Source: a virus
Direction: 5' to 3' (one strand)
IMG/VR virus record: IMGVR_UViG_3300033816_000156
Span: 1-46,587 of that record
DNA: 46,587 nucleotides
Shown here: positions 2,883 to 46,587 of the stretch, piece after piece
Layout of the letters: the number at the start of each line of letters is the position of its first letter
Numbering within the stretch: the stretch's first letter is position 1
Translations under genes and position numbers: made by a program
Notes under the pieces: generated by a model
The model's database searches: none
Seen by the model: only the letters and a program-made list of their open reading frames with translations
Told to the model about the DNA's origin: nothing

Positions 2883-3836
2883 ATGTCTGATGCCATTGGC
2901 GACTACTTAAACAGTATCGCTCGTTATCCACTTTTGACACCGCAACAAGAGATACAACTTGGCCGCCGCGTCGCAAAGTGGAAAGAACTAAAGGATCTTG
3001 AAAGACCTTTGACCACTCAGGAACGCCGCGAGTTGCGCAGTGGCGAACGCGCCCGCCAGCGATTTATGCAGTCCAACTTGCAGCTTGTGGTGCATGTAGC
3101 CCGCAAATACAGCAAGCGCAACAATCAGACACTGGAGATGCTTGATCTGATCCAAGAGGGGAACATCGGGCTTGCGCGTGCTGTAGAACTATTTGACTAC
3201 AGCCGTGGTTATAAGTTCAGCACCTACGCATACTGGTGGATCCGTCAAGCCATTGGCCGCGCATTGGTGCAATATGACCCGATCATCAGACTGCCGCTCG
3301 GCATTCACGAGATGCTGGTCAAGCTGAATAAGACTGCGCAGTTATTTGCGCAGGAACATGGCCGCACTGCGAGCATGTCGGAGCTTGCCGTCATGCTTGA
3401 GGTAAAGCCTGAAGTCATATCTAATGCACTTCGGCAAGCGTATCGCGTCACTAGTCTTGACAAGCCAACGCAAGAAGATACATCTAACATCCTGGATCTT
3501 ATTGCAGATGAAAAGCAATATGACGTTGAATATGATTGGCAGCTTGAGATGCTGCGTGATCATTGCGAGCAATATCTAGATGAACGCACTCGTGAAATTA
3601 TCTACGCACGCAACAGCCGAAACCCAGTGCCTTGGAACGAGCTAGAGCAACGCATGGGTTTATCACGTGGCCACATGTGCCAGCTTCAATTACGTGGTAT
3701 CAATCGGCTTCGTATGCTAATAGGCAATCCGCTGGCAGGCACCCCACTTGGCGCCAACGATAAAGAAAGTAGGGAACATTTGGAGAGTATGCCTAGCGGG
3801 GATGTGCAAAGATCACCAGCAGGAATGGCAGGCTAA
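2883..3836 (+). CDS. Phage-encoded sigma-70 family RNA polymerase sigma factor
   Basis: This 317-aa sigma factor resembles cyanobacterial group 2 factors. Region 1.2 is at residues 3-33 (IGDYLNSIARYPLLTPQQEI). Region 2 spans about 58-130, with LVVHVARKYS, LDLIQEGNIGL and the promoter-melting/-10 segment YKFSTYAYWWIRQAIGRAL. Region 3 begins with IRLPLGIHEML near 135-145, and a divergent region 4 HTH lies near 233-280 (WNELEQRMGLSRGHMCQLQ). A long variable C-terminal tail follows. It should redirect host RNA polymerase to phage promoters. The divergent region 4 suggests an altered -35 preference. The gene ends the rightward module and overlaps the convergent HNH gene by 4 bases. Confidence 0.93.
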   Translation: MSDAIGDYLNSIARYPLLTPQQEIQLGRRVAKWKELKDLERPLTTQERRELRSGERARQRFMQSNLQLVVHVARKYSKRNNQTLEMLDLIQEGNIGLARAVELFDYSRGYKFSTYAYWWIRQAIGRALVQYDPIIRLPLGIHEMLVKLNKTAQLFAQEHGRTASMSELAVMLEVKPEVISNALRQAYRVTSLDKPTQEDTSNILDLIADEKQYDVEYDWQLEMLRDHCEQYLDERTREIIYARNSRNPVPWNELEQRMGLSRGHMCQLQLRGINRLRMLIGNPLAGTPLGANDKESREHLESMPSGDVQRSPAGMAG

Positions 3837-4159: not shown

Positions 4160-5218
4160 TCAATAATCCCATCGTACCCTTGGTCTGCCGCGTCGCATCC
4201 CTAAATGCACAAATCCTTTAGGTGCGCCGTAGCCGAGTGAATATGGCCATTGCTCGTCGCACCAATCCTGCACATGATTGATGTTGACCTCGCGGATGTA
4301 GAAATCAACCGCACCAACGCTAGGCGCATCGTATAGATGCTCGCTACCACTCGATCCACCAACTGATGCATTGATAGCACGCGGGCGATAGCCGCTTGTG
4401 ATCACAACAGGCTTGCCGCCAAACTTGACACGTGCACGCTCAAGGAATGCCGCTAGCTCTGCTGCCGTGTCAAGTTGATATTGATGATCAAATCGCCGCA
4501 CTTCTTGGAATAATGCAAACTCACCAAGCTGCACGTGTGGCGTGATGCGCGCAGTGAATGCGCTATCGGGGCTGAGCTTAGCCGGTGCTTGTTGCTGCTC
4601 ACCAGCCCATAGGCGACCTTCAGCGCGACGGCGGCGCAGCAACCCGGCTTCTACGGCGCTGCCTGGATTGCGGTACAGCTCCATTGCGGCTGGCACTGCT
4701 GCCCAATCCTTATCCCGCAAGCATCTGCTGATGGTTTCAAAGCCAGCACTGCCATAAAAGCCAGCGCCAAGGTTGTAAGCAAAGGAGATCAGCGCGCATT
4801 GCTTGTTGCCACTCATGCCGCTCCAAAATGGCACGTTAGTGCGCAGTTTTTCCGCAATGCGCTCTACTTCAACATCAAGCAATTGATCGGCGTCAATCAC
4901 AGTGATCTTGTCACCGCGTTGCACCTTGCGGCCATCTGGGTAGCGCGTGGTGCCGTAGCCGATGGTTGCCACATCCCATCCATGCAGCGGATCAGGATAG
5001 GCGCTGAGATGCACGCCCTCAAACTCTTTAATGAGTTTTACCGCTGCGTCATAATTATGCAACTTGCCGCCAGCCTGCCAGGTCTTGTACCATGCTTGGC
5101 TGCGATCAAATACTTGCGGCGCTACCTTCATCAACTCTGCTTCAAGCTCGGACACTGCCGCCATTTGATGCGGCGTACCGTGCTTGTAATACTTAAACAG
5201 ATCCGATAGTTTGATCAT
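4160..5218 (-). CDS. Two-domain endolysin: GH24 muramidase plus M15-type peptidase
   Basis: This 352-aa lysis protein combines two peptidoglycan hydrolases. Residues about 60-205 are a T4-lysozyme-like GH24 domain with EFEGVHLSAYPD and VATIGYGTT, giving a Glu67/Asp76/Thr85 catalytic set. Residues about 228-350 resemble peptidase M15 (family M15_3), with VVITSGYRPR, SSGSEHLYD, GAVDFYI and FVHLGMR; likely zinc ligands are His294, Asp305 and His338. The first 55 residues are a helical region without an export signal, so release should depend on a holin. Two small membrane proteins lie directly upstream, as expected for a lysis cassette. Confidence 0.9.
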   Translation of the reverse strand: MIKLSDLFKYYKHGTPHQMAAVSELEAELMKVAPQVFDRSQAWYKTWQAGGKLHNYDAAVKLIKEFEGVHLSAYPDPLHGWDVATIGYGTTRYPDGRKVQRGDKITVIDADQLLDVEVERIAEKLRTNVPFWSGMSGNKQCALISFAYNLGAGFYGSAGFETISRCLRDKDWAAVPAAMELYRNPGSAVEAGLLRRRRAEGRLWAGEQQQAPAKLSPDSAFTARITPHVQLGEFALFQEVRRFDHQYQLDTAAELAAFLERARVKFGGKPVVITSGYRPRAINASVGGSSGSEHLYDAPSVGAVDFYIREVNINHVQDWCDEQWPYSLGYGAPKGFVHLGMRRGRPRVRWDY

Positions 5219-16363: not shown

Positions 16364-16752
16364 CAGTAATCAAGCTCCCCAGCAAGGTTGATGGTTACGG
16401 TGCTGCGCCCGTTAATCACCGATTTCACTTCAGGCGGGTTGGTGTACTCCCACTTGATCTGAGTAGGCGACTGGATTTTGCCAGCAAGTGTGGTGCTCAT
16501 GCCAGCGAACAATTCAGCCGGCAAAGTAAAACGCTCAAAGCCGCCGCTGGTGGCGTTGTAGTGATCAATCAGTTGCGCGGTAAGGGTGTCGCTGATGTTA
16601 TTGAAGCTGAGCTGTAATTCGTAGCCGTAAGCGCGGTTGCCAAATGCTCGCTTGACCGTGGCGCCAGATAAGGCGCGGTAACTTTTGACTGGGTACTGGC
16701 CGAGACGGAAGCTGCGTTCCGCTGGTTTGATGCCGGGGAATTGTGCAGCCAT
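16363..16752 (-). CDS. Minor tail protein, lambda M-like
   Basis: The 129-aa product shows the pattern of phage minor tail protein M: PGIKPAERSFRLGQYPVKSY, SGATVKRAFGNRAYGYELQL, LIDHYNATSGGFERFTLP and a C-terminal STVTINLAGELDY. Lambda M helps assemble the tail tip after the tape measure. The gene starts within the last base of the tape-measure gene and ends at the start of the L-position gene. Confidence 0.82.
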   Translation of the reverse strand: MAAQFPGIKPAERSFRLGQYPVKSYRALSGATVKRAFGNRAYGYELQLSFNNISDTLTAQLIDHYNATSGGFERFTLPAELFAGMSTTLAGKIQSPTQIKWEYTNPPEVKSVINGRSTVTINLAGELDY

Positions 16753-18983
16753 CAGCGGAGTCCTACGCGCCCGCGAGTGCCGGGACTTTGCTGCAGCTTA
16801 TCGAGTGTCATGGACATTCCTCGTTTGGCACCGTCACGGGCAGCATCACGGCGCGTAGATGCCATGGCGGCCTCCAGTTGATCGCGGCTGACGTATTCGA
16901 CGCCGCCGATGTTGGTGGTTTCAAAGTTCATTTTAAGTACGGTACCGCCGGCAGATCCACCGCCATTGCTCATGGCACTGCGCAGATTACGGTTATTGAC
17001 GATGCTGCCGCCAGAGTTGGGAACGAACAGCTCAGGACCACGCTCGCCAACGATATATGGAGTGTTGTTTGCAACGGGACCACCTTGAGCCCTACCACCA
17101 ACAGCAAAACCAGGAATAGTCGTTTTCAAAGCGCCAGTACCGGTCAGATTTTTATTTGCTGTGCTCAGAGCACTGCCACCACCGCTGAGGGCATTGAAAA
17201 TAGTTTGCAGGATAATCAGCGTCATTTGTTTAGCGATAATATCAACCGCCATGCTGATAAAAGCATCACCGATGCTCTTAAAGGCATCTGCTAGCGCCTG
17301 CTGAGTTGACTTGGCTCCTGTAATTACTTCACCAAACGCGGTACTAAATGCAGTACCAATAGCGGTTGCGCCGTTGACAATTGCGTCAACTTGAAGCTTG
17401 ATCGGATCAAGATCTTCCTTGAGCTTGGCTATGGCGTTAGACAAGCCACCAGCCACAGTGCCATCACCAGCTACGCCAAATTCCGTCTCACCAAGAGCTT
17501 CTTTGAATAGTTTTTCAGCCTCTTCAGCTTGCTTTTGTAATTCTTCAGTCTGCAATTTGATTATTTCTAGGCGCTGAATTTCTGCGTTTAATACCGTGAG
17601 ATTGGTGCGTTGCTCCGCGTTCTTTAGCTCGCTAATTTGCTTGGCGCGGTCTTCAAAGTCAAATTGAATTTGCAGACGCTTGCGTTCAATTTCTGATCCC
17701 TCAAACAGCAACGCTGCTTGACGACTAAATTGCGTGCCAAGCTGATCTCCAACTTCTAAGGACCGTTCAAGCTCTTTCCGTAATTTTTCCGCTTCGCGTG
17801 CTGCTTTCTCGGCCGCTTTTTCTGCGTCGGTTTTGCCTTTACGGCCTTTGCCACCAGCTCCAATGCCTCCTGAAACACCGCCGCCACCTTCTAAGTTTTG
17901 CGCAGAAGCCGCTTGCACTAATCGCCCAGTGATTGTGCTGTAAACATTTCCCTGTGCGTCTTTGTAAGTCCTTCCAACACCGGCTTGCTCTAATTTGCCA
18001 GCGCCACGCTGCATTAACTGTTGCTGCAATATCCTTGCGCCTCTAGCGCCAGTCGCGCCTTCAATCAGTTGATTTATGTAATTCAGTACTGGGCCTGCGA
18101 CTGCACCTATTCCCTTGATAATTGGGGCTATTGCCCTCAAGGAGTTCGTCAAGATGCGAACACCATCAATTATTGATGGCAACAGATCTTCGGTGGCTGC
18201 TACCTGAAAATTCTCGAACTCATTTTGCAAATTTTTGATAGCTTGGGCGGGGCCATCCATTGCAGTCGCCAACTCGTCGGCACCTTCAGTACCAGCACGC
18301 TTCAAGGCGCGAATGACAATATCAGATGTAATTTCTCCCTGTTCGGCAAGTTCTCGGATTTCGCTAACAGGCTTGCCAAGTTCCTTGGTTAATGCAACAA
18401 CCAAACCCGGCGCCTGTTCAAGAACAGAGTTAAGTTCCTGCCCACGTAAAACACCGGAGCCAAGCGCCTGCGTTAATTGCAGCAAGGCGCCAGCACTTTC
18501 AGCAGTTGTGGCTCCGCTGACTTTTGCGGCTGTATTAAAACCGACAAACGCCGCGTTGATATCTTCAAGGCTGACATTTAGCGGGCGTAGGCGTCCATAT
18601 AGCTGTGAGAATTGTTGATTGCTTTCGGTGGCGCTAAGACCAAATATTTTTCCTGATTGGGCCGCTAATTCTTGGGCTTTTGCAACTTCGCCGTATCCTT
18701 TCGCTAGGAACGTCAGCCTGCGTTCTGATTCTTCGCGCTGAATACCAGCCTGAACAGCTTGCTGCGCCGTTCTCAAGCCAAGATATGCGGCGGACAGTCT
18801 TCCTAATACGCCGATCAGTTCAGATGCTGAGCTGCTTGCATTACGAAAAGGCTGACTAGTTGAAGAGCCATTGATCCCCTCTAGCGCTTTTTGTGCCTGC
18901 TGAGCGGCTTGTTGTACCTCACGCAGCTTGCTAACCGCATTGCGGCTGTCGACGTTAATGGCAACGTTGGCGACAACCGACAC
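16752..18983 (-). CDS. Tail tape measure protein
   Basis: This 743-aa protein starts with GTG at 18983, three bases after the stop of the chaperone extension frame. Residues about 60-235 match the tape-measure domain of the TMP_3 type (LSATESNQQFSQLYGRLRPL, QALGSGVLRGQELNSVLEQA). Long charged coiled coils (about 370-500) and two hydrophobic segments (about 560-610) follow. The C-terminus has the common NTPYIVGERGPELFVPNSGG motif. From the usual 1.5 angstroms per residue, the tail would be roughly 110 nm; this is an estimate only. Confidence 0.93.
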   Translation of the reverse strand: MSVVANVAINVDSRNAVSKLREVQQAAQQAQKALEGINGSSTSQPFRNASSSASELIGVLGRLSAAYLGLRTAQQAVQAGIQREESERRLTFLAKGYGEVAKAQELAAQSGKIFGLSATESNQQFSQLYGRLRPLNVSLEDINAAFVGFNTAAKVSGATTAESAGALLQLTQALGSGVLRGQELNSVLEQAPGLVVALTKELGKPVSEIRELAEQGEITSDIVIRALKRAGTEGADELATAMDGPAQAIKNLQNEFENFQVAATEDLLPSIIDGVRILTNSLRAIAPIIKGIGAVAGPVLNYINQLIEGATGARGARILQQQLMQRGAGKLEQAGVGRTYKDAQGNVYSTITGRLVQAASAQNLEGGGGVSGGIGAGGKGRKGKTDAEKAAEKAAREAEKLRKELERSLEVGDQLGTQFSRQAALLFEGSEIERKRLQIQFDFEDRAKQISELKNAEQRTNLTVLNAEIQRLEIIKLQTEELQKQAEEAEKLFKEALGETEFGVAGDGTVAGGLSNAIAKLKEDLDPIKLQVDAIVNGATAIGTAFSTAFGEVITGAKSTQQALADAFKSIGDAFISMAVDIIAKQMTLIILQTIFNALSGGGSALSTANKNLTGTGALKTTIPGFAVGGRAQGGPVANNTPYIVGERGPELFVPNSGGSIVNNRNLRSAMSNGGGSAGGTVLKMNFETTNIGGVEYVSRDQLEAAMASTRRDAARDGAKRGMSMTLDKLQQSPGTRGRVGLR

Positions 18984-18986
18984 GAC

Positions 18987-19175
18987 TTACCTACGGCTTT
19001 GCTTCAGTCTACGATCTTGCTCTTCGTTTTGAAGTTCAAAGTAACTAGACCATATCAGCAACTCTTCAAGCGTTACCTCTTGGTTTAATCGTGCCAGGCT
19101 ATATCCAAGTTCTTTAGCAACCCCAAGCTGTAACAACAGCAGGTTGTCTTTCTTTAGCTCAGCCTTTACCGCTTT
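18987..19175 (-). CDS. Tail assembly chaperone extension frame (GT-type), probably reached by +1 frameshift
   Basis: Downstream of the G-like gene a second frame stays open from a TGA at 19176-19178 to a TAA at 18987-18989, and it has no ATG or GTG start. It encodes a helical segment (LGVAKELGYSLARL, TLEELLIWSSYFELQNEEQ) typical of tail-chaperone T domains. The frame is +1 (or -2) relative to G. The overlap window contains AAA-GGC-TGA, where a Lys tRNA could slip from AAA to AAG just before the G stop. That would give a fusion of about 173 aa. The next gene, the tape measure, starts three bases after the TAA, which supports a translated frame. An internal TTG start is the alternative. Confidence 0.72.
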   Translation of the reverse strand, partial: KAVKAELKKDNLLLLQLGVAKELGYSLARLNQEVTLEELLIWSSYFELQNEEQDRRLKQSRR

Positions 19176-19509
19176 TCATATCCAGTTCTTTGCCTTCCTC
19201 TGGATTTGTAATGATTGCCAGCATCATGGCTTGCAGGTCACTGTCAAGCACATCATTTTTCAGCTCGGCAATTTCACCAGCCTGAAACAACCGCTGGCCG
19301 GCATCGTCGGCTGCTTTGGTTACCAGCAGATTCAGCGCAAAACCATTGGGATCATCGCCGCCGGGCATCTTCTGCGCACGCTCACGTTCTGCCATGGTCA
19401 ACGCTGTGGCATAAAACTCAAACGTAGATCCATCGTTGAGTGTTACAACACGCTTGATTGGTTGAAGATTGGCAGCTTTCTTGAGTCGCGCCAGTGCAGA
19501 TGGTGCCAT
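19159..19509 (-). CDS. Tail assembly chaperone, G-like
   Basis: The 116-aa product lies between the tail tube and tape-measure genes, the fixed place of tail assembly chaperones. It has a compact N-terminal domain (KRVVTLNDGSTFEFYATALT) and a helical C-terminal half (SDLQAMMLAIITNPEEGKEL). Such proteins coat the tape measure before tube polymerisation and are usually made together with a frameshifted longer form; a suitable extension frame follows directly. The start at 19509 gives a normal length. Confidence 0.83.
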   Translation of the reverse strand: MAPSALARLKKAANLQPIKRVVTLNDGSTFEFYATALTMAERERAQKMPGGDDPNGFALNLLVTKAADDAGQRLFQAGEIAELKNDVLDSDLQAMMLAIITNPEEGKELDMKSGKG

Positions 19510-19555: not shown

Positions 19556-20314
19556 TCAAGCAGAAGTGCTGAAGTCGAAAGTAGGCACGCCAGATGGGCG
19601 GAACGTGATCTCCACCTGCTGAGCGTCGTCAGGGTTGATATTCAGGCTGGCGGTCAGCAGCACAGCATCCATTGCGATGCTGCGGCTAAGCGCCTCGGTG
19701 CCTTGCTTGTCGGTGTACAGCTTGAAGCCGCAGCCAACCTGCTGGCGCTGCAGCACGTCTTCCACCATACGGTTGGACAGTGCAGCGTCCTCGTTGGTCA
19801 CGTAGATCGTTGCGGTGCCGTTGCCGTCGGCAAAGCCAGGAATATATGCACGGAAAGGCGCATACTGCCCAGCGGTTTGGCCGATGGTGGTTACGTCGAT
19901 CTCAGCGCGGCTGATCTCAAACGACCATGACTGCACTTGGCCAACGGCGGCATAGTCGGCGTAGTACACCTCGAACTCGTTAGGTGCCACGGCTGTGCCG
20001 TCGTCGGTGATGGCGAGGATAGTACCGCCAGCAACCGTCGAAACCGTCAGCGCACCAGTGGCTGCGGTGTAGCTCAGCACGTAGTAGGTGGTAGCTGCAT
20101 CAATGGGAGACGGCAGCGTGCCGGAGCCTGAGCCGCCAGTTTGGCTGTTGATGACGCGGAACTTTACCGGGTCGCCAGCTTTGAAGTTCAGATACGGCTG
20201 AACGGTAATGACATCAGTGCTGGCGTTGACGCCAGACTCGGGAAAGTTGCCGTTAGTGCCGGCAGGTTTGTAGTAAAGGGCGCCGGACGTACCGGACAAA
20301 ACAGTGACAGCCAT
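19556..20314 (-). CDS. Major tail tube protein
   Basis: This 252-aa beta-rich protein precedes the chaperone genes. It contains SGTSGALYYKPAGTNGNFPE near the start, a middle GDPVKFRVINSQTGG region with a repeated beta sandwich, and the tube-core pattern VQSWSFEISRAEIDVTTIGQ followed by GQYAPFRAYIPGFADGNGTA and a C-terminal QQVEITFRPSG strand. It should polymerise around the tape measure to form the non-contractile tail. No sheath gene is present anywhere in the module, which supports a siphovirus-like particle. Confidence 0.85.
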   Translation of the reverse strand: MAVTVLSGTSGALYYKPAGTNGNFPESGVNASTDVITVQPYLNFKAGDPVKFRVINSQTGGSGSGTLPSPIDAATTYYVLSYTAATGALTVSTVAGGTILAITDDGTAVAPNEFEVYYADYAAVGQVQSWSFEISRAEIDVTTIGQTAGQYAPFRAYIPGFADGNGTATIYVTNEDAALSNRMVEDVLQRQQVGCGFKLYTDKQGTEALSRSIAMDAVLLTASLNINPDDAQQVEITFRPSGVPTFDFSTSA

Positions 20315-20337: not shown

Positions 20338-20745
20338 TCAGTCTAGATACGCTTCAAACGTAGCAGTTAGCTGAGTCTGAAAGTAAGGTTCTGGCGCTGC
20401 TGGCGTTACTTGCGCTGGCCCTGAAGCTGCGTCAAAGATAATGCTTGAAAACTTAGCGCGATCAAACAAATCCTTTAGCCGCTCTGCAATGGTAAAATTA
20501 GCTGCAGTGCCTTGCCCTTGCGGTGTAAAGACATTGATCACCAGCGTGCCAGTCTGGCGGTTGAAGCTAGTCAGCGTGGCGTAGCTGTTATCGCCAAATC
20601 GGATGAACGCCTGCACCCATGGCGTGTTGTTGGGTGGCGTAAACGGCACGTTCTGATAGCTGACCGGATACGCAGGCGACAGCGCCATTTGCGTTGCAAT
20701 GCGCCCTTCAATGGCGGCACGAACGTCGTTGTAGGTGCTGCTCAC
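20338..20745 (-). CDS. Tail terminator-like protein
   Basis: The 135-aa product matches the DUF4128/tail-terminator style: an N-terminal helix (YNDVRAAIEGRIATQM), VSYQNVPFTPPNNTPWVQAF, TGTLVINVFTPQGQGT and IAERLKDLFDRAKF, then a last strand ending LTATFEAYLD. Such proteins cap the tail tube and join it to the head. It is followed by the tube gene and overlaps the upstream neck gene by 4 bases. Confidence 0.82.
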   Translation of the reverse strand: MSSTYNDVRAAIEGRIATQMALSPAYPVSYQNVPFTPPNNTPWVQAFIRFGDNSYATLTSFNRQTGTLVINVFTPQGQGTAANFTIAERLKDLFDRAKFSSIIFDAASGPAQVTPAAPEPYFQTQLTATFEAYLD

Positions 20746-33275: not shown

Positions 33276-34316
33276 TTAGCCCTTAATTTGCACAGGCATT
33301 ACAAGATAAGTTACACCGTCCACGCCACTAGGTGTCAGCACCACGGGTGTGGTTTCCGTATTGGCGTGCAGCGTGATGGCTTCTGCGGGCTTGAACGCCT
33401 TGATGCCGTCTAGTAGGTAGTGGACGTTGAACGCCCACGCGCCATTGGCGGTGCCTTCCACTTTGAGCAGCTCCTTGCCGTTGTTGGCGTCTGATTCAGC
33501 AGTGATGGCGATGGTGCCACCTACTGCCTCGATCTTGACGATGGAGTTGTGCGCATCGGCGATGATGGCGACACGCTCCAGTGCACGGGTCAGTCGGCGG
33601 CGGTCGGCGGTGATGGTGCTTTTGAACTCAGCGGGTACCAGCTTGGCCACGTCTGGGTAGGTGCCATCCATGATGCGCGAGTACACCATGACTCCATCGC
33701 CTGCGTCAATCACGGCTTGCCCTTTGGCAACGGCGATGGTGACCACGCGATCCTGCAACAGGCGCATGGTGCTGGCGGGTAGCACGAGGTCTAGGCCATC
33801 TGGCAAATCAATGGCGTAACGCATCAGGCGATGCCCGTCAGTGGCTTCCATGTGGCCATTGCCAAGGTGGATGCCTTGAAGCATCTGCTTGCTGGCGTCG
33901 GTGCTGGCAGCTGCCATGCAGGCGCGGATGCCGGCGGATAGGTGCAGCTCGCTCGTAGCGGCGTCCACAACCGGCAGCGCGGGGTAATCCGCCGCATCAG
34001 CCGCTGCAAGCCCGTAGGAGCCCGCAGAAGCCGTCAGGGCGCCATCTGCGAGGGTCAGAGCCTCATCGCCATCAAAGCGGCTCACAAGGCCAGCCAGCAG
34101 CCGATACGGCAGCACTACGGCGCCATCGGTCTCCACTGCCGCTGGGATGGTGACGGTGATGCCGAGGTCAAGGTTGAAGCCGGTGATGGTCATGGCACCA
34201 CCGGCGGATTGGATCAGGCAGCAGTCAAGGATCGGATGGCTGCTGCGATGGCCAACGGCTGGCGCAATGGTGCGCAATGCGTGATCGAGATCGGCTTGGC
34301 AGGTAACGGCTTTCAT
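33276..34316 (-). CDS. dnaN: DNA polymerase III beta sliding clamp
   Basis: The 346-aa product is a three-domain sliding clamp like bacterial DnaN. It has the HPILDCCLIQSAGGAMTITG pattern in domain 1, RACMAAASTDASKQMLQGIH and MEATDGHRLMRYAIDL in domain 2, VYSRIMDGTYPDVAKLVPAE near the domain 2-3 border, and the terminal YLVMPVQIKG. No phage DNA polymerase or clamp loader was found in the window, so it should load on DNA with host factors and bind the host polymerase or phage repair enzymes. It lies between the terminase genes and the iteron-like region. Confidence 0.93.
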   Translation of the reverse strand: MKAVTCQADLDHALRTIAPAVGHRSSHPILDCCLIQSAGGAMTITGFNLDLGITVTIPAAVETDGAVVLPYRLLAGLVSRFDGDEALTLADGALTASAGSYGLAAADAADYPALPVVDAATSELHLSAGIRACMAAASTDASKQMLQGIHLGNGHMEATDGHRLMRYAIDLPDGLDLVLPASTMRLLQDRVVTIAVAKGQAVIDAGDGVMVYSRIMDGTYPDVAKLVPAEFKSTITADRRRLTRALERVAIIADAHNSIVKIEAVGGTIAITAESDANNGKELLKVEGTANGAWAFNVHYLLDGIKAFKPAEAITLHANTETTPVVLTPSGVDGVTYLVMPVQIKG

Positions 34317-37251: not shown

Positions 37252-39510
37252 ATGACCTACCAAGACTTCCTAGCTTCCAAATCCACTGCAGCACCTGTTG
37301 CCGGCTTTGACCCGCAGCAGTTCACAGCGCCGCTGTTCCCGTTTCAGCGGGACATCGTGACCATGGCTTGCCGTGTCGGCAAGTTCTGCATCTGGGCCGA
37401 CTGCGGCATGGGTAAAACCGCCATGCAGCTTGAGTGGGCGCATCAGGTGCATCAGCACACTGGCGCGAACGTGCTGGTGCTGGCACCTCTTGCCGTGGCA
37501 CATCAGACCGTGCGTGAGGGTGGCAAATTCGGCATTCCATGTTCGTTCGCTGCCACGCAGTCCGAGGTCAAGCCCGGTATCACGGTGACCAACTACGAGA
37601 AACTGAGCCACTTTGACCCCGGCAGCTTCCAAGGCGTGGTGCTTGATGAGAGCAGCATCCTCAAGGCATATACGGGCAAGATCCGCAATCAGATCATCGA
37701 GTCGTTCAGCCTCACTCCATACCGTCTGGCCTGCTCAGCTACACCAGCACCGAACGACCACATGGAGCTTGGCAACCATGCCGAGTTCATCGGCGTCATG
37801 ACCCGCACTGAGATGCTGGCCATGTTCTTCGTGCACGACGGTGGCGACACCGCCAAGTGGCGGCTCAAGGGTCACGCAAAGAGCAAGTTTTGGGAGTGGG
37901 TCTGCAGCTGGGCGGTAACCATCCGCAAGCCATCAGACCTTGGCTATGAGGACGGCAGCTTCGTGCTGCCGGCGCTGCAGATCCAGGACTGCACGGTTGA
38001 GACACCACGAGAGGCAACTGCAGGTGATGACGGGCAGATGGCGCTGTTCGCCATGGAGGCTCGCACGCTCAACGACCAGCGCAAGGTGCGCAAGGCATCG
38101 CTCGCTCTCCGCGTGGCCGCTGCCGGCAAGCTGGCCAACAGCAACACCGAGCAGTGGTTGATCTGGTGTGATCTCAACGATGAGAGCAAGGCGCTGACTG
38201 CGGCTATCAATGGCGCGGTTGAGGTGTCAGGCTCGGATTCTGACGACCACAAGCGGCAGGCCGCCATTGACTTCCAAGACGGCAAGATCCGCGTGCTGGT
38301 CAGCAAGCCCAGCATCTTTGGCTTTGGCCTTAACTTCCAGCGCTGCCACAACGTTGCATTCGTTGGTCTGTCGCACAGCTACGAGGCGTTCTATCAAGCC
38401 ATCCGCCGCTGCTGGCGATTTGGCCAAGAGCAGCCCGTCAACGCTCACATCATCTACGACGTGGCAGAAGGCCGCGTGATCGACAACATCCGCCGCAAGG
38501 AAGCGGACAGTATCCAAATGGCTCAATCAATGGTTGAAATCATGAAGCAACAAACCATGGAACAACTCAAGAAGATCCAACGTCAAGTGGCGCCGCACAT
38601 CACTGAGCACAAGTCCGGTGATGGATGGGACATGTATATGGGCGACTGCGTGGAGAGCATTAAGCAGCTCGATAGCAATTCCATCCACTACAGCATTTTC
38701 AGTCCGCCGTTCGCATCGCTTTACACCTACAGCAACAGCGACCGCGATATGGGCAACAGCCGCACTGAGCAGGAGTTCTTCGATCACTTCGGATTTCTTG
38801 CCAGTGAGCTGCACCGCGTGATGATGCCCGGCAGGCTGATCAGCTTTCACTGCATGAATCTGCCCAGCAGCAAAGAACGCGATGGTTTCATCGGTGTGAA
38901 GGACTTCCGCGGTGACATGCTGCGCATCTTCCAGGCTGCTGGTTTCGTATTTCATAGCGAGGTGTGCATCTGGAAGGATCCGGTCACCGCAATGCAGCGC
39001 ACCAAGGCAATTGGCCTACTGCACAAGCAAGTGCGCAAGGATTCAGCGCTCAGCCGCCAGGGCATCCCCGACTATCTCGTAACCGTGCGCAAGCTGGGCG
39101 ACAACCCAGAGCCGGTGGCTGGTCCGTTCACAGAGTTTGCCGGCGAGAATCCACCACCTAAGACCAAGGATCCGATCAAAGACTCGATCAACATCTGGCA
39201 GCGCTATGCCAGTCCGGTGTGGATGGATATCAACCCATCGGACACGCTGCAATATCGCAGCGCACGCGCCAACGACGACGAGCGGCACATCTGCCCGCTG
39301 CAGCTTGAGGTGATCCGTCGGGGCCTGCAGCTATGGAGCAACCCTGGCGACGTGGTGCTGTCGCCGTTTGCCGGCATTGGCAGCGAGGGCTACTGCAGCA
39401 TCCAAGCCGGGCGCCAGTTTGTCGGGTTTGAGCTGAAGCCTTCGTATTTCAACTGTGCGGTCAAGAACCTGACTGAGGTGGCCAGCAATCGTCAAGGAGT
39501 GCTGGTGTGA
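37252..39510 (+). CDS. SNF2-like helicase fused to DNA methyltransferase
   Basis: This 752-aa protein joins two enzymes. Residues about 25-450 are a superfamily 2 SNF2/DEAD-like translocase: Walker A CGMGKT (51-56), motif II LDESS (131-135), motif III ACSATPAPN (160-168) and motif VI YQAIRRCWRFGQEQPV (381-396). Residues about 455-745 are a beta-type amino-methyltransferase, with motif IV SPPF (484-487) coming before motif I FAGIGSEG (706-713) and a FVGFELKPSYF end. SPPF is typical of N4-cytosine (or some N6-adenine) enzymes. No nuclease domain is present. It may modify phage DNA during replication or block restriction. It starts the rightward replication operon. Confidence 0.9.
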   Translation: MTYQDFLASKSTAAPVAGFDPQQFTAPLFPFQRDIVTMACRVGKFCIWADCGMGKTAMQLEWAHQVHQHTGANVLVLAPLAVAHQTVREGGKFGIPCSFAATQSEVKPGITVTNYEKLSHFDPGSFQGVVLDESSILKAYTGKIRNQIIESFSLTPYRLACSATPAPNDHMELGNHAEFIGVMTRTEMLAMFFVHDGGDTAKWRLKGHAKSKFWEWVCSWAVTIRKPSDLGYEDGSFVLPALQIQDCTVETPREATAGDDGQMALFAMEARTLNDQRKVRKASLALRVAAAGKLANSNTEQWLIWCDLNDESKALTAAINGAVEVSGSDSDDHKRQAAIDFQDGKIRVLVSKPSIFGFGLNFQRCHNVAFVGLSHSYEAFYQAIRRCWRFGQEQPVNAHIIYDVAEGRVIDNIRRKEADSIQMAQSMVEIMKQQTMEQLKKIQRQVAPHITEHKSGDGWDMYMGDCVESIKQLDSNSIHYSIFSPPFASLYTYSNSDRDMGNSRTEQEFFDHFGFLASELHRVMMPGRLISFHCMNLPSSKERDGFIGVKDFRGDMLRIFQAAGFVFHSEVCIWKDPVTAMQRTKAIGLLHKQVRKDSALSRQGIPDYLVTVRKLGDNPEPVAGPFTEFAGENPPPKTKDPIKDSINIWQRYASPVWMDINPSDTLQYRSARANDDERHICPLQLEVIRRGLQLWSNPGDVVLSPFAGIGSEGYCSIQAGRQFVGFELKPSYFNCAVKNLTEVASNRQGVLV

Positions 39511-42826: not shown

Positions 42827-43614
42827 CCAGCAACGCCGACTACCACGCCGATCCGGCGGTCAGCGCTTCGCACCTGCACGCAGTGGCCAAGTCGCCCTAC
42901 CACTATTGGAGCCGCTACCTCGACCCCAAGCGCAGTGCACCCGAGCCAACTGCTGCTATGCGGCTTGGCTCACTGGTGCATTGCGCAGTGCTGGAACCGG
43001 AGGAGCTGCTGCAGCGCTATGGCGTCTGCGGGCCGCGAAATACCAAAGCCGGCAAGGAGCAGGCGGATCGGATGGCCGCTGCTGGCATTGAAGCGGTCAC
43101 GCAATCCGACATGGCACTGGCGCTATCCATGGCTGCCAGCGTCCGCGTGCATCCTGCAGCAGCAGCACTGCTTGCCCATGGCAAGGCTGAGCAGTCCTTC
43201 TGGTGGGATGACGCCGCCACTGGGCTGCGCTGCAAGTGCCGCCCTGACTGGTATGACGGCGCCACTGTGGTGGATCTCAAGACCACCACGGATGCCAGCC
43301 CTGCCGGCTTCGCCCGTAGCGTGGCTACCTTCCGCTACCATGTGCAAGCGAGCCACTACCTAGCCGGCTTGCACGGTGCTGAGCGGTTTGTGTTCATTGC
43401 CGTTGAAAAGACTGCTCCGTACGCGGTTGCGGTCTACGAGCTGGACGCCGCGGCCATGGCTGCTGGTGATGAGCTGCGGCAACGTGACATGCGCGTGATC
43501 GCCGACTGCCAAGCCACCAAGGAGTGGCCGGGTTACGGCGACACGTGCCAAGCGCTCAGCCTGCCTTCATGGGCATTAACTGCCAACCCAACTATCACAT
43601 CCGATGACTTCTAG
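42823..43614 (+). CDS. RecE-like PD-(D/E)XK exonuclease
   Basis: This 263-aa protein shows the RecE/YqaJ-like core: an SASHLHAVAKSPYHYWSRYL start, MRLGSLVHCAVLEP (His53), RPDW (Asp142), VVDLKTTTDASP with Asp151 and Lys153, and FRYHVQASHYLAG. It should digest 5' ends of double-stranded DNA to expose 3' single strands for Bet. The bet gene begins inside its last 11 bases, the typical coupling. The C-terminal 20 residues are also present at the left end of the window. Confidence 0.88.
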   Translation: MTSNADYHADPAVSASHLHAVAKSPYHYWSRYLDPKRSAPEPTAAMRLGSLVHCAVLEPEELLQRYGVCGPRNTKAGKEQADRMAAAGIEAVTQSDMALALSMAASVRVHPAAAALLAHGKAEQSFWWDDAATGLRCKCRPDWYDGATVVDLKTTTDASPAGFARSVATFRYHVQASHYLAGLHGAERFVFIAVEKTAPYAVAVYELDAAAMAAGDELRQRDMRVIADCQATKEWPGYGDTCQALSLPSWALTANPTITSDDF

Positions 43615-44359
43615 CATCACGCTCTGGACACCAGAGCAAACGCAGCTGATCTCAACCACCATTGCGCCTGGCTGCAGCAATGACGAGTTGCGCCTGTTTG
43701 CCTACGCCTGCCAGCGCACTGGACTGGATCCGTTCAGCAAACAGATCTACGCCATCAAGCGTGGCGGCAAGATGACCATCCAAGCCGGCATTGACGGCTT
43801 GCGTGCCATTGCCGAGCGCACCGGGCAACTTGATGGCAGCATCACTGAATGGTGCGGTGAAGACGGCCAGTGGACTGATGTATGGCTGGGCAGCAAGCCA
43901 CCTGCCGCGGCCAAGACCACTATCTGGCGCAAAGGTGCCAACCATCCATTTACTGGCGTTGCACGCTTTGCTGACTACAACGCCGGCCAAGGCTTGTGGT
44001 CCAAGATGGGCGCAGCGATGATCGCCAAATGCTCTGAGGCATTGGCACTGCGCAAGGCGTTTCCCGCAGACATGTCCGGTGTCTACAGCACCGATGAGAT
44101 GCAGCAGGCAGAGGTGGAGCCGGTGACCGTTACCGCTGCACCCACGCTCCCGGCAGGCGACGCCAAGCTGTTCCAAGCCGGTAAGGCTGCGATTGCCAAG
44201 GCCGACACGCTGGACAAGCTGCAGGAGGTGGTAGCGCGCATGGATAAGCGCAAGCCTGATCTCAGCGATGAGCAGAACGATGAGTTGCTGCGCCTTGCTG
44301 TAGAGCGCGAAGCGGTGCTATCCGACACGCCATCGGAGGATCCCTTCGCTGATGACTGA
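43604..44359 (+). CDS. bet: Bet/RecT-family single-strand annealing protein, copy B
   Basis: The 251-aa protein equals copy A except for two scattered residues (Thr to Ile in the STTEW segment, Ala to Thr near 180) and a rewritten stretch just before the tail (residues about 224-243). The acidic EDPFADD end is the same. It follows the complete RecE-like gene here, so this is the intact exonuclease/annealase pair of the window. It should promote annealing during phage recombination and concatemer formation. Confidence 0.93.
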   Translation: MTSSITLWTPEQTQLISTTIAPGCSNDELRLFAYACQRTGLDPFSKQIYAIKRGGKMTIQAGIDGLRAIAERTGQLDGSITEWCGEDGQWTDVWLGSKPPAAAKTTIWRKGANHPFTGVARFADYNAGQGLWSKMGAAMIAKCSEALALRKAFPADMSGVYSTDEMQQAEVEPVTVTAAPTLPAGDAKLFQAGKAAIAKADTLDKLQEVVARMDKRKPDLSDEQNDELLRLAVEREAVLSDTPSEDPFADD

Positions 44360-44561
44360 ACCATTCCTCACTACTGATGAGCTGGCAGCACGTTGGGGGT
44401 TGAAGCCAGCAGCCATCAAAAACCAACGTGCACGCGGTATTGGCCCTGCTTACGTCACCGCACCACGCATTGGCCTGCCAGCAGGCACGCCACGTGTCCG
44501 TTATCCCCTTGCACAAGTCTTGGCTTTTGAAGAAGCCAATGGCATCACACCACTGAACTGA
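44352..44561 (+). CDS. Small HTH DNA-binding protein, copy B
   Basis: The 69-aa excisionase/MerR-like HTH differs from copy A by two substitutions (Ile to Val and Leu to Pro in the wing region). Here the only sensible start is ATG 44352, which settles the start of copy A. It overlaps bet by 8 bases and precedes ssb by one base. Confidence 0.8.
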   Translation: MTEPFLTTDELAARWGLKPAAIKNQRARGIGPAYVTAPRIGLPAGTPRVRYPLAQVLAFEEANGITPLN

Positions 44562-44562
44562 C

Positions 44563-44913
44563 ATGAGCCTTTACGCAACCGGCATCGTTCGCATCATCAC
44601 CGACCCGCAACTGCGTGCCTTTGAATCCGGCACCATGGTTGCCAACTTCGCAGGTGGCATCCAGGAAGGCAAAGACAAAGACGGCAACTGGATCAATAAC
44701 GCAATCGACTGCGAGATCTGGGGCAAATCTGCTGAGCTGATCGTTGATAAGCTCAAAAAAGGCGACAGCATTCTTGTAACCGGTGCCGTACGCCGGCAAG
44801 AGTGGAACGACAAGGAGACCGGTGCCAAGCGCAGCAAGCATGTGCTCAGCATCCAGCGCTTTGAATTCATGCCACGCGGCGCAGCAACTACCAGCGAGGA
44901 GCCTGTGTTCTGA
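44563..44913 (+). CDS. ssb: Single-stranded DNA-binding protein, copy B
   Basis: The 116-aa OB-fold protein is identical to copy A, with the acidic SEEPVF tip, although 20 bases differ. All differences are synonymous, nearly all at third positions. Function and context are as for copy A, here behind a complete RecE-like/bet pair. Confidence 0.95.
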   Translation: MSLYATGIVRIITDPQLRAFESGTMVANFAGGIQEGKDKDGNWINNAIDCEIWGKSAELIVDKLKKGDSILVTGAVRRQEWNDKETGAKRSKHVLSIQRFEFMPRGAATTSEEPVF

Positions 44914-45068
44914 TGAATCAAACCACACTTGATATTGCATTCAAGGAGTGGTGGGAGGCGTCCTACGGGCGCCCTCCCGGCACCCATGCAGTGATGACAC
45001 ACGTGGCATTTGCCGCGCATATTCTTGAACTCCTGGAGCTGATGCAAGATGATCAACCACAAGACTGA
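44913..45068 (+). CDS. Small conserved protein of unknown function, copy B (51 aa)
   Basis: The product matches copy A up to the MQD segment with two substitutions (Glu to Asp, His to Pro) and then ends in DQPQD. This is probably the original end, since copy A is altered by a deletion there. It overlaps ssb by one base and the next gene by 20 bases. Confidence 0.75.
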   Translation: MNQTTLDIAFKEWWEASYGRPPGTHAVMTHVAFAAHILELLELMQDDQPQD

Positions 45069-45204
45069 ACAGCGCCGTGATGACTACTTGCAGTGGCTGT
45101 ACGAGCAAAGCGGCCGGACCTGCTGCACCTACACCGGGCTATATCAACAGCGCATTGCTGATCTGGTCCGCCGCGATATGGCAGAGGTATTGGGTGATGA
45201 GTGA
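45049..45204 (+). CDS. Small protein present only in copy B (51 aa)
   Basis: The frame encodes INHKTEQRRDDYLQWLYEQS, a CC pair in RTCCTYTGLY, and a helical RIADLVRRDMAEVLGDE end. It lies between the 51-aa protein and DUF3310 with overlaps on both sides. Copy A lacks it through a 148-base deletion between two GATGA pentamers (45048 and 45196 in copy B). I do not recognise the family; with its YLQWLYEQ core it looks like a small helical protein. Confidence 0.68.
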   Translation: MINHKTEQRRDDYLQWLYEQSGRTCCTYTGLYQQRIADLVRRDMAEVLGDE

Positions 45205-45415
45205 TCTCGTCAACCATCCGCCGCATTACAAGCACGGCGACATTGAGTGCATCCAAGCCATTAAGGCAGCACTCGGTGATGACGGCTTTCGCGCTTACTG
45301 CAAAGGCAACGTCATCAAATACCTATGGCGTGCCGAGCACAAGGGCAATGCCGATCAGGACTACGGCAAAGCCGACTGGTACATGCGCAGGTTGCTGCTG
45401 CATGTAGATGAGTGA
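45197..45415 (+). CDS. DUF3310 family protein, copy B
   Basis: The ATG at 45197 gives a 72-aa protein with VNHPPHYKHGDIECIQAIKA and GNVIKYLWRAEHKGNADQDY; starts further upstream in this frame lie inside the preceding gene. It differs from copy A at a few residues and in the last three. Its role in nucleotide metabolism is not defined. It overlaps the HTH gene by 8 bases. Confidence 0.87.
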   Translation: MSDLVNHPPHYKHGDIECIQAIKAALGDDGFRAYCKGNVIKYLWRAEHKGNADQDYGKADWYMRRLLLHVDE

Positions 45416-45593
45416 TCCGTTTAAGCGCGGCGAGGCAAACTACGCCGCGTTTCTTACAGAAGATCACGTGCGCGAGCTGCGCCAGTTGCGTGTTGCTGGT
45501 AACAGCTACAGACAACTGGCAGAACGCTACGGCATCGACAAGAAACACGCATGGCGCATCTGCCAACGCATTGCATGGAGCTGGCTTGAATGA
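45408..45593 (+). CDS. Small HTH protein, allele B of the variable regulator locus
   Basis: The 61-aa product has the HTH pattern FLTEDHVRELRQLRVAGNSY and LAERYGIDKKHAWRICQRIA, like the DNA-binding part of phage HNH enzymes, but no nuclease. Compared with allele A (1702-1893) the layout is the same and similarity low, mainly LT...(E)LRQL and the YGI turn. The recognition helix differs completely, so the two probably bind different sites. Confidence 0.78.
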   Translation: MSDPFKRGEANYAAFLTEDHVRELRQLRVAGNSYRQLAERYGIDKKHAWRICQRIAWSWLE

Positions 45594-45925
45594 CACAAGA
45601 ACATCCCATCACCCCACCGCCTGAGCTGGTGCAAGCGTGGTCCGACGAGGCATTGACCGCCTCTGGAATGTTTGAAGTCAAGATGAATTTTGCCACCTAT
45701 GCCGCCCGCTGGGGCAGCGACCAAGAGCTGAAGGCGTGCTGTGAGTGGGTCAAAAGCAAGCAGACCTATTGGGCGCACGACGAACTCCGCGCCAGCCGCC
45801 GGCCCAAGCCGCCGAGCTTGAAGGAGCAGGCGCTTGACGAGCTGCACATCAGTTTCGACAGGGGCTACCTCAAGGAAGGAGCTGCCGACACCATCCGCCG
45901 CGCATTGGAGCAGCTCCCCGATTAG
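45590..45925 (+). CDS. Conserved cyanophage-type small protein, full-length allele B (111 aa)
   Basis: The protein starts EHPITPPPELVQAWSDEALT, contains YAARWGSDQELKACCEWVKS and RRPKPPSLKEQALDELHISF, and ends in DTIRRALEQLPD. This is the complete form; copy A lost about 109 bases near the end. The middle also differs between copies by a short insertion and several substitutions, more than in the other genes. Function unknown. Confidence 0.8.
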   Translation: MTQEHPITPPPELVQAWSDEALTASGMFEVKMNFATYAARWGSDQELKACCEWVKSKQTYWAHDELRASRRPKPPSLKEQALDELHISFDRGYLKEGAADTIRRALEQLPD

Positions 45926-45949
45926 CCAAGCCCACTATTTACTCAACCA

Positions 45950-46480
45950 ATGACCATTCTCTGCGACTACGAAATCAAAGCGCTGTGCACCGACGGCATG
46001 GTGCCGAACTACGACGAGGCATTGATCAATCCTGCCAGCCTTGATCTACGGCTTGGTGACACGATCATGATCGAGTCCGCCGAAAACCTCAACATGCGGC
46101 CACTCAGCATTGCAGGACGCACGGCGGAAAATCCGTACGAACTCAAGCCAGGGCAATTCATCCTTGCACAGACGATTGAAGTGTTCAACATGCCGGAGAA
46201 CATTGCCGGCCTGTTCTTTCTTAAGTCAAGCCGCGCGCGGGAAGGCTACGAAAATCTGCACGCCGGTTACGCAGATCCTGGCTGGCATGGCAGCGTGCTG
46301 ACCTTGGAGCTGAAGAACTCACGCCAGATCCTGCCGCTGCCGCTTTGGCCTGGCTTAAAGATCGGGCAGATGGTGTTCTTCCGCATGAGCCAGCAGCCGG
46401 TGACCAGCTACAGCGTTACAGGCCATTACAACTCAGACATCACGACGACGGCCTCGAAGCAGTTCCTCAGCGGCATCTAG
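45950..46480 (+). CDS. dcd: dCTP deaminase family protein (Dcd/dUTPase fold), copy B
   Basis: The 176-aa protein differs from copy A at one residue (Leu to Ile in the SRQLLPLPLW segment) despite many silent changes. The INPASLDLRLGD, KSSRAREGY and AGYADPGWHG motifs and Glu120 are intact. In this copy 24 bases separate it from the upstream gene, whereas copy A has a 4-base overlap created by the deletion. Confidence 0.88.
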   Translation: MTILCDYEIKALCTDGMVPNYDEALINPASLDLRLGDTIMIESAENLNMRPLSIAGRTAENPYELKPGQFILAQTIEVFNMPENIAGLFFLKSSRAREGYENLHAGYADPGWHGSVLTLELKNSRQILPLPLWPGLKIGQMVFFRMSQQPVTSYSVTGHYNSDITTTASKQFLSGI

Positions 46481-46587
46481 ATGCCACTGCTCTAGACCAG
46501 TCCGCAACGCTGCCGACGCTTCTTGCGCAAGCCAGTGGATTTGAGACCGCTGGCTTGCTTCTTGCTCGGCTAGCAGCAGCGCATATT
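46433..46587 (-). CDS. Antisense-oriented small protein, copy B (partial, runs off the window)
   Basis: This is the C-terminal part of the counterpart of the gene at 2624-2860; its start lies beyond the window. It contains YALLLAEQEASQRSQIHWLA and LDAAEELLRGRRRDV. Nine of the ten codons that differ from copy A outside the dcd overlap are synonymous. It overlaps the 3' end of dcd by 48 bases. Confidence 0.7.
   Translation of the reverse strand, partial: YALLLAEQEASQRSQIHWLAQEASAALRTGLEQWHLDAAEELLRGRRRDV

Follow-up and report, generated by a model that had tools for sequence, protein, structure and literature searches.

A predicted +1 frameshift at a conserved AAA_AGC sequence joins the tail assembly chaperone G to a T frame without start codon, in a phage gene family that also contains -1 arrangements

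We investigated the tail assembly chaperone gene G and the T frame that follows it in the window, i.e. the whole stretch of 46,587 nucleotides of viral DNA analysed here. The frame arrangement and its conservation in relatives point to a switch of the lambda G/GT type, in which a +1 slip of the P-site tRNA-Lys at AAA_AGC very probably yields a G-T fusion of 173 aa. The features of the locus, all on the minus strand, are the following, in the order in which they are met from the tail terminator to the tape measure.

20338-20745, minus strand: tail terminator gene, two genes upstream of G (Pfam PF13554, E 5e-17).
19556-20314, minus strand: neighbouring gene on the upstream side of G; its position between the terminator and G makes the major tail protein its probable identity.
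19159-19509, minus strand: gene G, tail assembly chaperone of 116 aa, with stop TGA at 19161-19159 (PHROG 20784, fold match 2OB9).
19171-19182, minus strand: conserved block GAY-ATG-AAA-AGC (entropy over 101 distinct contexts).
19176-19178, minus strand: T-frame stop TGA, which abuts the slip site upstream and is the 5' limit of the overlap (a T-frame stop stands here in 241 of 241 loci).
19171-19176, minus strand: proposed slip site AAA_AGC (AAA AGN in 241 of 241 +1 loci).
18987-19175, minus strand: T frame, an extension that lacks a start codon of its own and contributes 61 aa to the predicted fusion, followed by the stop TAA (PHROG matches, conservation in relatives).
19159-19167, minus strand: AAA-GGC-TGA, the earlier candidate site, present but not conserved (comparison with relatives).
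16752-18983, minus strand: tape-measure protein gene with a GTG start at 18983 (Pfam PF20155 TMP_3, E 7e-36; many PHROG tape-measure families).

The T frame is open from 19175 to 18987 and is closed just upstream by the TGA at 19178-19176. It contains neither ATG nor GTG, the earliest TTG being T codon 14 (19136), inside the conserved part. Its stop TAA (18989-18987) is followed by a gap of three bases and then by the GTG of the tape-measure gene at 18983. Relative to G, the T frame lies in the +1 frame, which is equally the -2 frame by geometry. These three properties, i.e. the lack of an ATG or GTG, the end three bases before the tape-measure start and the +1 (or -2) frame, had been described in a sequence-only reading of this DNA and are all confirmed.

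G matches PHROG 20784 with an E value of 2e-33. Its structure, predicted from a 45-sequence alignment (pLDDT 78), was compared with solved structures using Foldseek; the top match was 2OB9, the tail assembly chaperone of HK97 (E 4.5e-4, probability 1.00), the second chain of 2OB9 matched the G model at E 6e-3 and the next unrelated structure came at 0.16. By its modelled fold, G is a tail assembly chaperone of the HK97 gp13 type. The T part, which was modelled separately from G and not within the whole fusion, is predicted to be all-helical, with four helices and a pLDDT of 90. T matches PHROG 26456 (E 1.5e-5) and the tail protein family PHROG 14766 (E 0.015), and is too diverged for an alignment search with T alone. 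No Pfam or NCBIfam model matched G or T, nor did a sequence search of the PDB return a match for either. The earlier assignment of these frames to a G/T tail-chaperone pair agrees with the 2OB9 fold of G, the PF20155 tape measure downstream and the PF13554 terminator upstream.

The same G/T geometry was observed in 80 of 80 close IMG/VR relatives. Complete +1 loci numbered 241 (some contigs being counted twice) and form two clades, 162 loci with the window and 79 with the marine virus AG-345-A17, which correspond to 101 distinct site contexts in the window clade and 53 in the AG-345 clade. The G proteins of the AG-345 clade are about 35-40% identical to that of the window. A geometry kept in 241 loci is due neither to chance nor to sequencing error. 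Within the window clade, mismatches between relatives at T-frame codon positions 1, 2 and 3 amount to 0.22, 0.12 and 0.49, a pattern of purifying selection which indicates that the T frame is translated; the codon-position control in the G region was spoiled by indels and was left out of use. No prophage relatives were found in the genome contigs searched with the G query.

In principle a TTG or a non-standard codon could serve T as an independent start or as a site of reinitiation, and the TTG at T codon 14, like the TTG or ATG at codons 12-14 of some relatives, would offer such a place. We regard this as very unlikely. Across the 241 +1 loci no start codon was found at a conserved place in T, and 129 of them have no ATG, GTG or TTG in the first 25 T codons. 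Furthermore, the starts at codons 12-14 fall inside the conserved helical part, so that a protein begun there would lack about 13 conserved residues, and the T stretch ahead of them is itself conserved as protein. The proposal of a frameshift in place of an own T start, for which a normal T start codon in relatives had been named as the refuting result, is upheld, as no such codon was found in the relatives.

The only conserved sequence at which a shift could take place is AAA AGN (19176-19171), which is invariant in 241 of 241 +1 loci and reads AAA AGC in 234 of them. The codon on its 5' side is ATG in the window clade and TTA or TTG in the marine AG-345 clade, and either of these places a T-frame stop just before the AAA (241 of 241). 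The overlap of the two frames reads ATG AAA AGC NNT AAA GGC TGA in class A, which includes the window, ATG AAA AGC ACT GAA AAA GGA GCT AAG TAA in class B, ATG AAA AGC ACT TAA in locus L184 and TTR AAA AGC TAA in the AG-345 clade, AAA AGC being the part common to all four. The stretch open in both frames is as short as AAA AGC plus a stop in the AG-345 clade, and AAA AGC ACT plus a stop in L184, therefore the shift must happen there. In the shortest overlap, AAA_A is the only position permitting full re-pairing.

Across the 101 distinct contexts of the window clade, entropy stays near zero at all 12 consecutive positions of the block GAY ATG AAA AGC, compared with 1-2 bits for the flanking third positions. 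This 12-mer occurs once in the window, with 0 occurrences expected by chance. Outside the slip site, 49% of the Lys residues of window-clade G are encoded by AAA and 18% of the Ser residues by AGC; against this 49% background, the invariance of the AAA has a P of about 2e-5 (15 dereplicated members). In the AG-345 clade AAA already represents 76% of the Lys codons, and invariance alone is weak there. The same GATATGAAAAGC is carried by L486 and L488, which the tree assigns to the distant AG-345 clade. These two loci, found later, read GAT ATG AAA AGC TAA, and a third, L487, reads GAT CTC AAA AGC TAA. The CTC that L487 (1328-1438) presents in place of ATG or TTR makes it the only +1 relative seen without a T-frame stop before AAA AGC, and a stop at this place was rejected as a requirement.

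The sequence-only reading had located the slip nine bases downstream of AAA AGN, at AAA-GGC-TGA, where a tRNA-Lys on the AAA at 19167-19165 would re-pair on AAG, aided by the following GGC and TGA. The sequence is indeed present in the window, the re-pairing from AAA to AAG is plausible, and most class A relatives keep an AAA there, with GAA AAA GGA one codon further on in class B. However, no more than a part of class A retains the complete AAA-GGC-TGA. It is absent from class B, L071 (GAA GGC TGA), L196 (GAA GCT TGA), L217 (AAA AAC TGA), L184 (AGC ACT TAA) and the whole AG-345 clade (AAA AGC TAA). The AAA itself is replaced by GAA in L071 and L196 and by CAA in L197 and L191, L184 ends before it, and the AG-345 clade lacks the codon altogether. 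Within the window clade, the codon before the G stop is free to vary (GGC, GAC, GAT, AAC, AGC, GAG, GTC). A slip at AAA-GGC-TGA is, in our judgement, unlikely. The idea of a stop codon behind the slip site serving as a pause has to be abandoned as well: the G stop lies 1 to 9 codons from the conserved AAA, and a distance that varies in this way excludes the stop codon from the signal. The fusion of 173 aa announced by the same reading is retained as a predicted translation. Its length is the same from either site and only the junction differs, ...ELDMK-AVKAELKK for AAA_AGC and ...ELDMKSGK-AELKK for AAA-GGC; the corresponding predicted junction peptides are ...LDMKAVKAELKK and ...LDMKSGKAELKK, respectively.

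According to the model that we propose for AAA_AGC, most ribosomes would read G to its TGA and release the 116-aa product, and a minority would slip one base forward near the end of G. The anticodon of the peptidyl-tRNA-Lys would move from the AAA at 19176-19174 to the overlapping AAA at 19175-19173 with full cognate pairing, and GCG (19172-19170) would replace AGC as the A-site codon. Translation would then continue through T to the TAA ahead of the tape-measure gene, giving the G-T fusion. If lambda is a guide, G may coat the tape measure and the T part may recruit the tail-tube subunits.

Two other routes to the shifted frame were considered. A -2 slip would produce an identical frame relation and has a precedent in phage Mu (PMC5009743). 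Nevertheless, where the overlap is two codons long, as in the AG-345 clade, it would need a tRNA-Ser on AAA or a tRNA-Lys on the TGA/TAA triplet, with almost no pairing, and most loci have only four As; there being no re-pairing site for -2, the +1 direction is favoured and we hold the -2 slip to be extremely improbable. Transcriptional slippage could likewise use the A run at the site to give the shifted frame, but known runs of this kind are usually much longer and the window clade has just AAAA, which leaves this explanation hardly credible.

We searched near the AAA_AGC site for a stimulator and found no stop codon, rare codon, well-placed Shine-Dalgarno sequence or conserved 3' structure. 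Among the Ser codons of the window AGC ranks first, with 385 uses (GCG has 234), and AAA-AGC is not avoided elsewhere in the window, being seen 6 times for 4.8 expected. The hexamer alone is therefore probably only weakly shifty, and a hungry-codon model for AGC is not supported by the same two observations. As to the Shine-Dalgarno feature known from RF2, no conserved purine motif beyond GAY ATG was detected near the site in the window clade. No 3' stem-loop was found in the window clade, whose consensus folds at -0.34 kcal/mol (15 members), and in the AG-345 clade it is weak at most (-2.5 kcal/mol). No phage tRNA genes were found. The AG-345 clade (L083 and kin) presents an invariant 5' block, GAGGCTAAAGCCGA, located 18 to 5 bases before the AAA in the 53 distinct contexts. 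A GCC is fixed within this block, compared with 17 of the 484 Ala codons elsewhere in the genes of this clade. The block can pair as GGC-UAAA-GCC, and 56 of 200 shuffles fold equally well. It may act as a 5' stimulator; an upstream hairpin has been reported to favour +1 and damp -1 shifts (PMC6321510), which we take as a lead only.

Other relatives carry T in the -1 frame. Cyanophage KBS-S-2A (HQ634187) has the same gene order as the window, with a G 65% and a T 73% identical, and its slip sequence is GTA AAA AAC TAA, i.e. A_AAA_AAC. The -1 sites are A_AAA_AAC/A and C_CCA_AAA in the KBS-S-2A group, A_AAG in the MED4-184 clade and C_CCA_AAA in a further marine clade of 80 loci (L489 and kin). 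In 14 members of the KBS clade, nearly all of the A_AAA type, a 3' stem-loop of -17.8 kcal/mol stands a few bases past the heptamer, with compensatory changes in four pairs. The -1 relatives indicate that the same two parts, G and T, are joined by frameshift. The fusion of KBS-S-2A matches PHROG 14766 'tail protein' over residues 23-154, across the junction (E 6e-6), and the tail assembly chaperone family PHROG 344 (E 3e-4). The T frame is unannotated in KBS-S-2A (HQ634187, 34102-34304), and in MED4-184 (JF974286, 30032-30231) no gene is listed between G and the tape measure.

In a tree built from G plus T with the junction excluded, the +1 clade of the window (support 100/99) lies among -1 lineages and the AG-345 clade stands apart from it, which requires a minimum of two direction changes. 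None of 200 bootstrap trees grouped the +1 loci into a single clade. In the AU test a single +1 origin received a p of 0.16, then of 0.057 with more rows, a borderline result that is no formal rejection. Judging from these comparisons, at least one direction switch in this gene family is near certain, because both directions occur in homologous genes, and two switches are likely. Either the AAA_AGC site arose twice, or AAA_AGC is old and the -1 sites were derived from it.

Additionally, other genes of the window were identified. A phage sigma-70 factor with regions 1.2-4 is encoded at 2883-3836 (plus strand), and KBS-S-2A likewise annotates an RpoD-like gene. The best genome matches of this sigma factor are all cyanobacterial (80 of 80) and show about 40% identity; most belong to Prochlorococcus, Synechococcus and Cyanobium, and a picocyanobacterial host is therefore likely. 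The region 43553-46587 is a diverged direct copy of 1-2778 (about 87-93% identity in the matching pieces), where RecT-like, SSB-like and dCTP deaminase genes lie; the copy is either an effect of assembly, in which a genome of about 43.5 kb was closed onto a related strain, or a true duplication. A single frame of 752 aa at 37252-39510 (plus strand) combines a helicase (ResIII/Helicase_C) with a DNA methylase (N6_N4_Mtase, E 1e-13). On the minus strand, 33276-34316 encodes a DNA polymerase III beta clamp in which the three Pfam domains are all present, and 4160-5218 a lysis protein of two domains, a phage lysozyme and a peptidase M15.

The G/T pair is of the known lambda G/GT kind with a different signal, having the features neither of the -1 heptamer nor of the stop or rare codon of the PSA/RF2 type. 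Frameshifting itself is well known in tailed phages, which vary among -1, -2 and +1 for the same product (PMC5009743); the forward direction and the slip site are what is unusual here. The window resembles lambda gpG/gpGT (PMC5009743) in that G precedes the tape measure, T is startless in another frame and a low-level fusion is expected, and differs from it by a +1 instead of a -1 shift, with no XXXYYYZ heptamer and no stimulator detected. Known phage +1 sites use CCC before stop or rare codons (PMC5009743, PMC6316719). Those of the Listeria phages PSA, A118 and A500 and of SPP1 resemble the window in having their +1 shift on a homopolymeric codon within a tail gene of a phage, but CCC_U is followed there by a stop or rare codon, the gene is that of the tail shaft (or capsid), and the SPP1 chaperone pair 17.5/17.5* has been placed at -1 (PMC5009743, PMC6316719). 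The shifty P-site codon of the PSA/RF2 type is found here, as AAA to AAA within AAAA, whereas the stop or rare A-site codon is absent, its place being taken by the commonest Ser codon. The archaeal virus HSTV-2 has a tail G-T pair described as 'very likely +1' (PMC5009743); its host and sequence are unrelated as far as known, and the likeness rests on the frame direction.

A general motif for forward frameshifts is still to be identified, and prediction has made use of runs of four or three bases followed by a rare codon (PMC10274946). The PRFect motif 'four' of that work, four identical P-site bases, is matched by the AAAA of the window, but PRFect needs a 0-frame A-site codon rarer than the +1-frame one, and here AGC (385) is commoner than GCG (234). 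No report of an AAA_AGC frameshift in a phage was found in the literature searched, which consisted of papers readable without subscription. It is possible, though somewhat doubtful, that NTR-AAA-AGN represents a bacterial class of +1 signal absent from this literature, which works without stop codon, rare codon, Shine-Dalgarno sequence or 3' structure and which arose twice among aquatic phages in their tail-chaperone genes, on each occasion taking the place of an ordinary -1 signal or giving way to one.

Both directions are used by one homologous gene, at protein identities as low as about 65%, with separately conserved, well-defined sites, and the family provides a route to asking how evolution crosses between slip directions. 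KBS-S-2A and its group differ from the window by a -1 shift at A_AAA_AAC/AAA or C_CCA_AAA, with a conserved 3' stem-loop in many members. The contrast between a -1 heptamer followed by a stem-loop and AAA_AGC without one makes these phages a natural pair for the study of what sets the direction of the slip.
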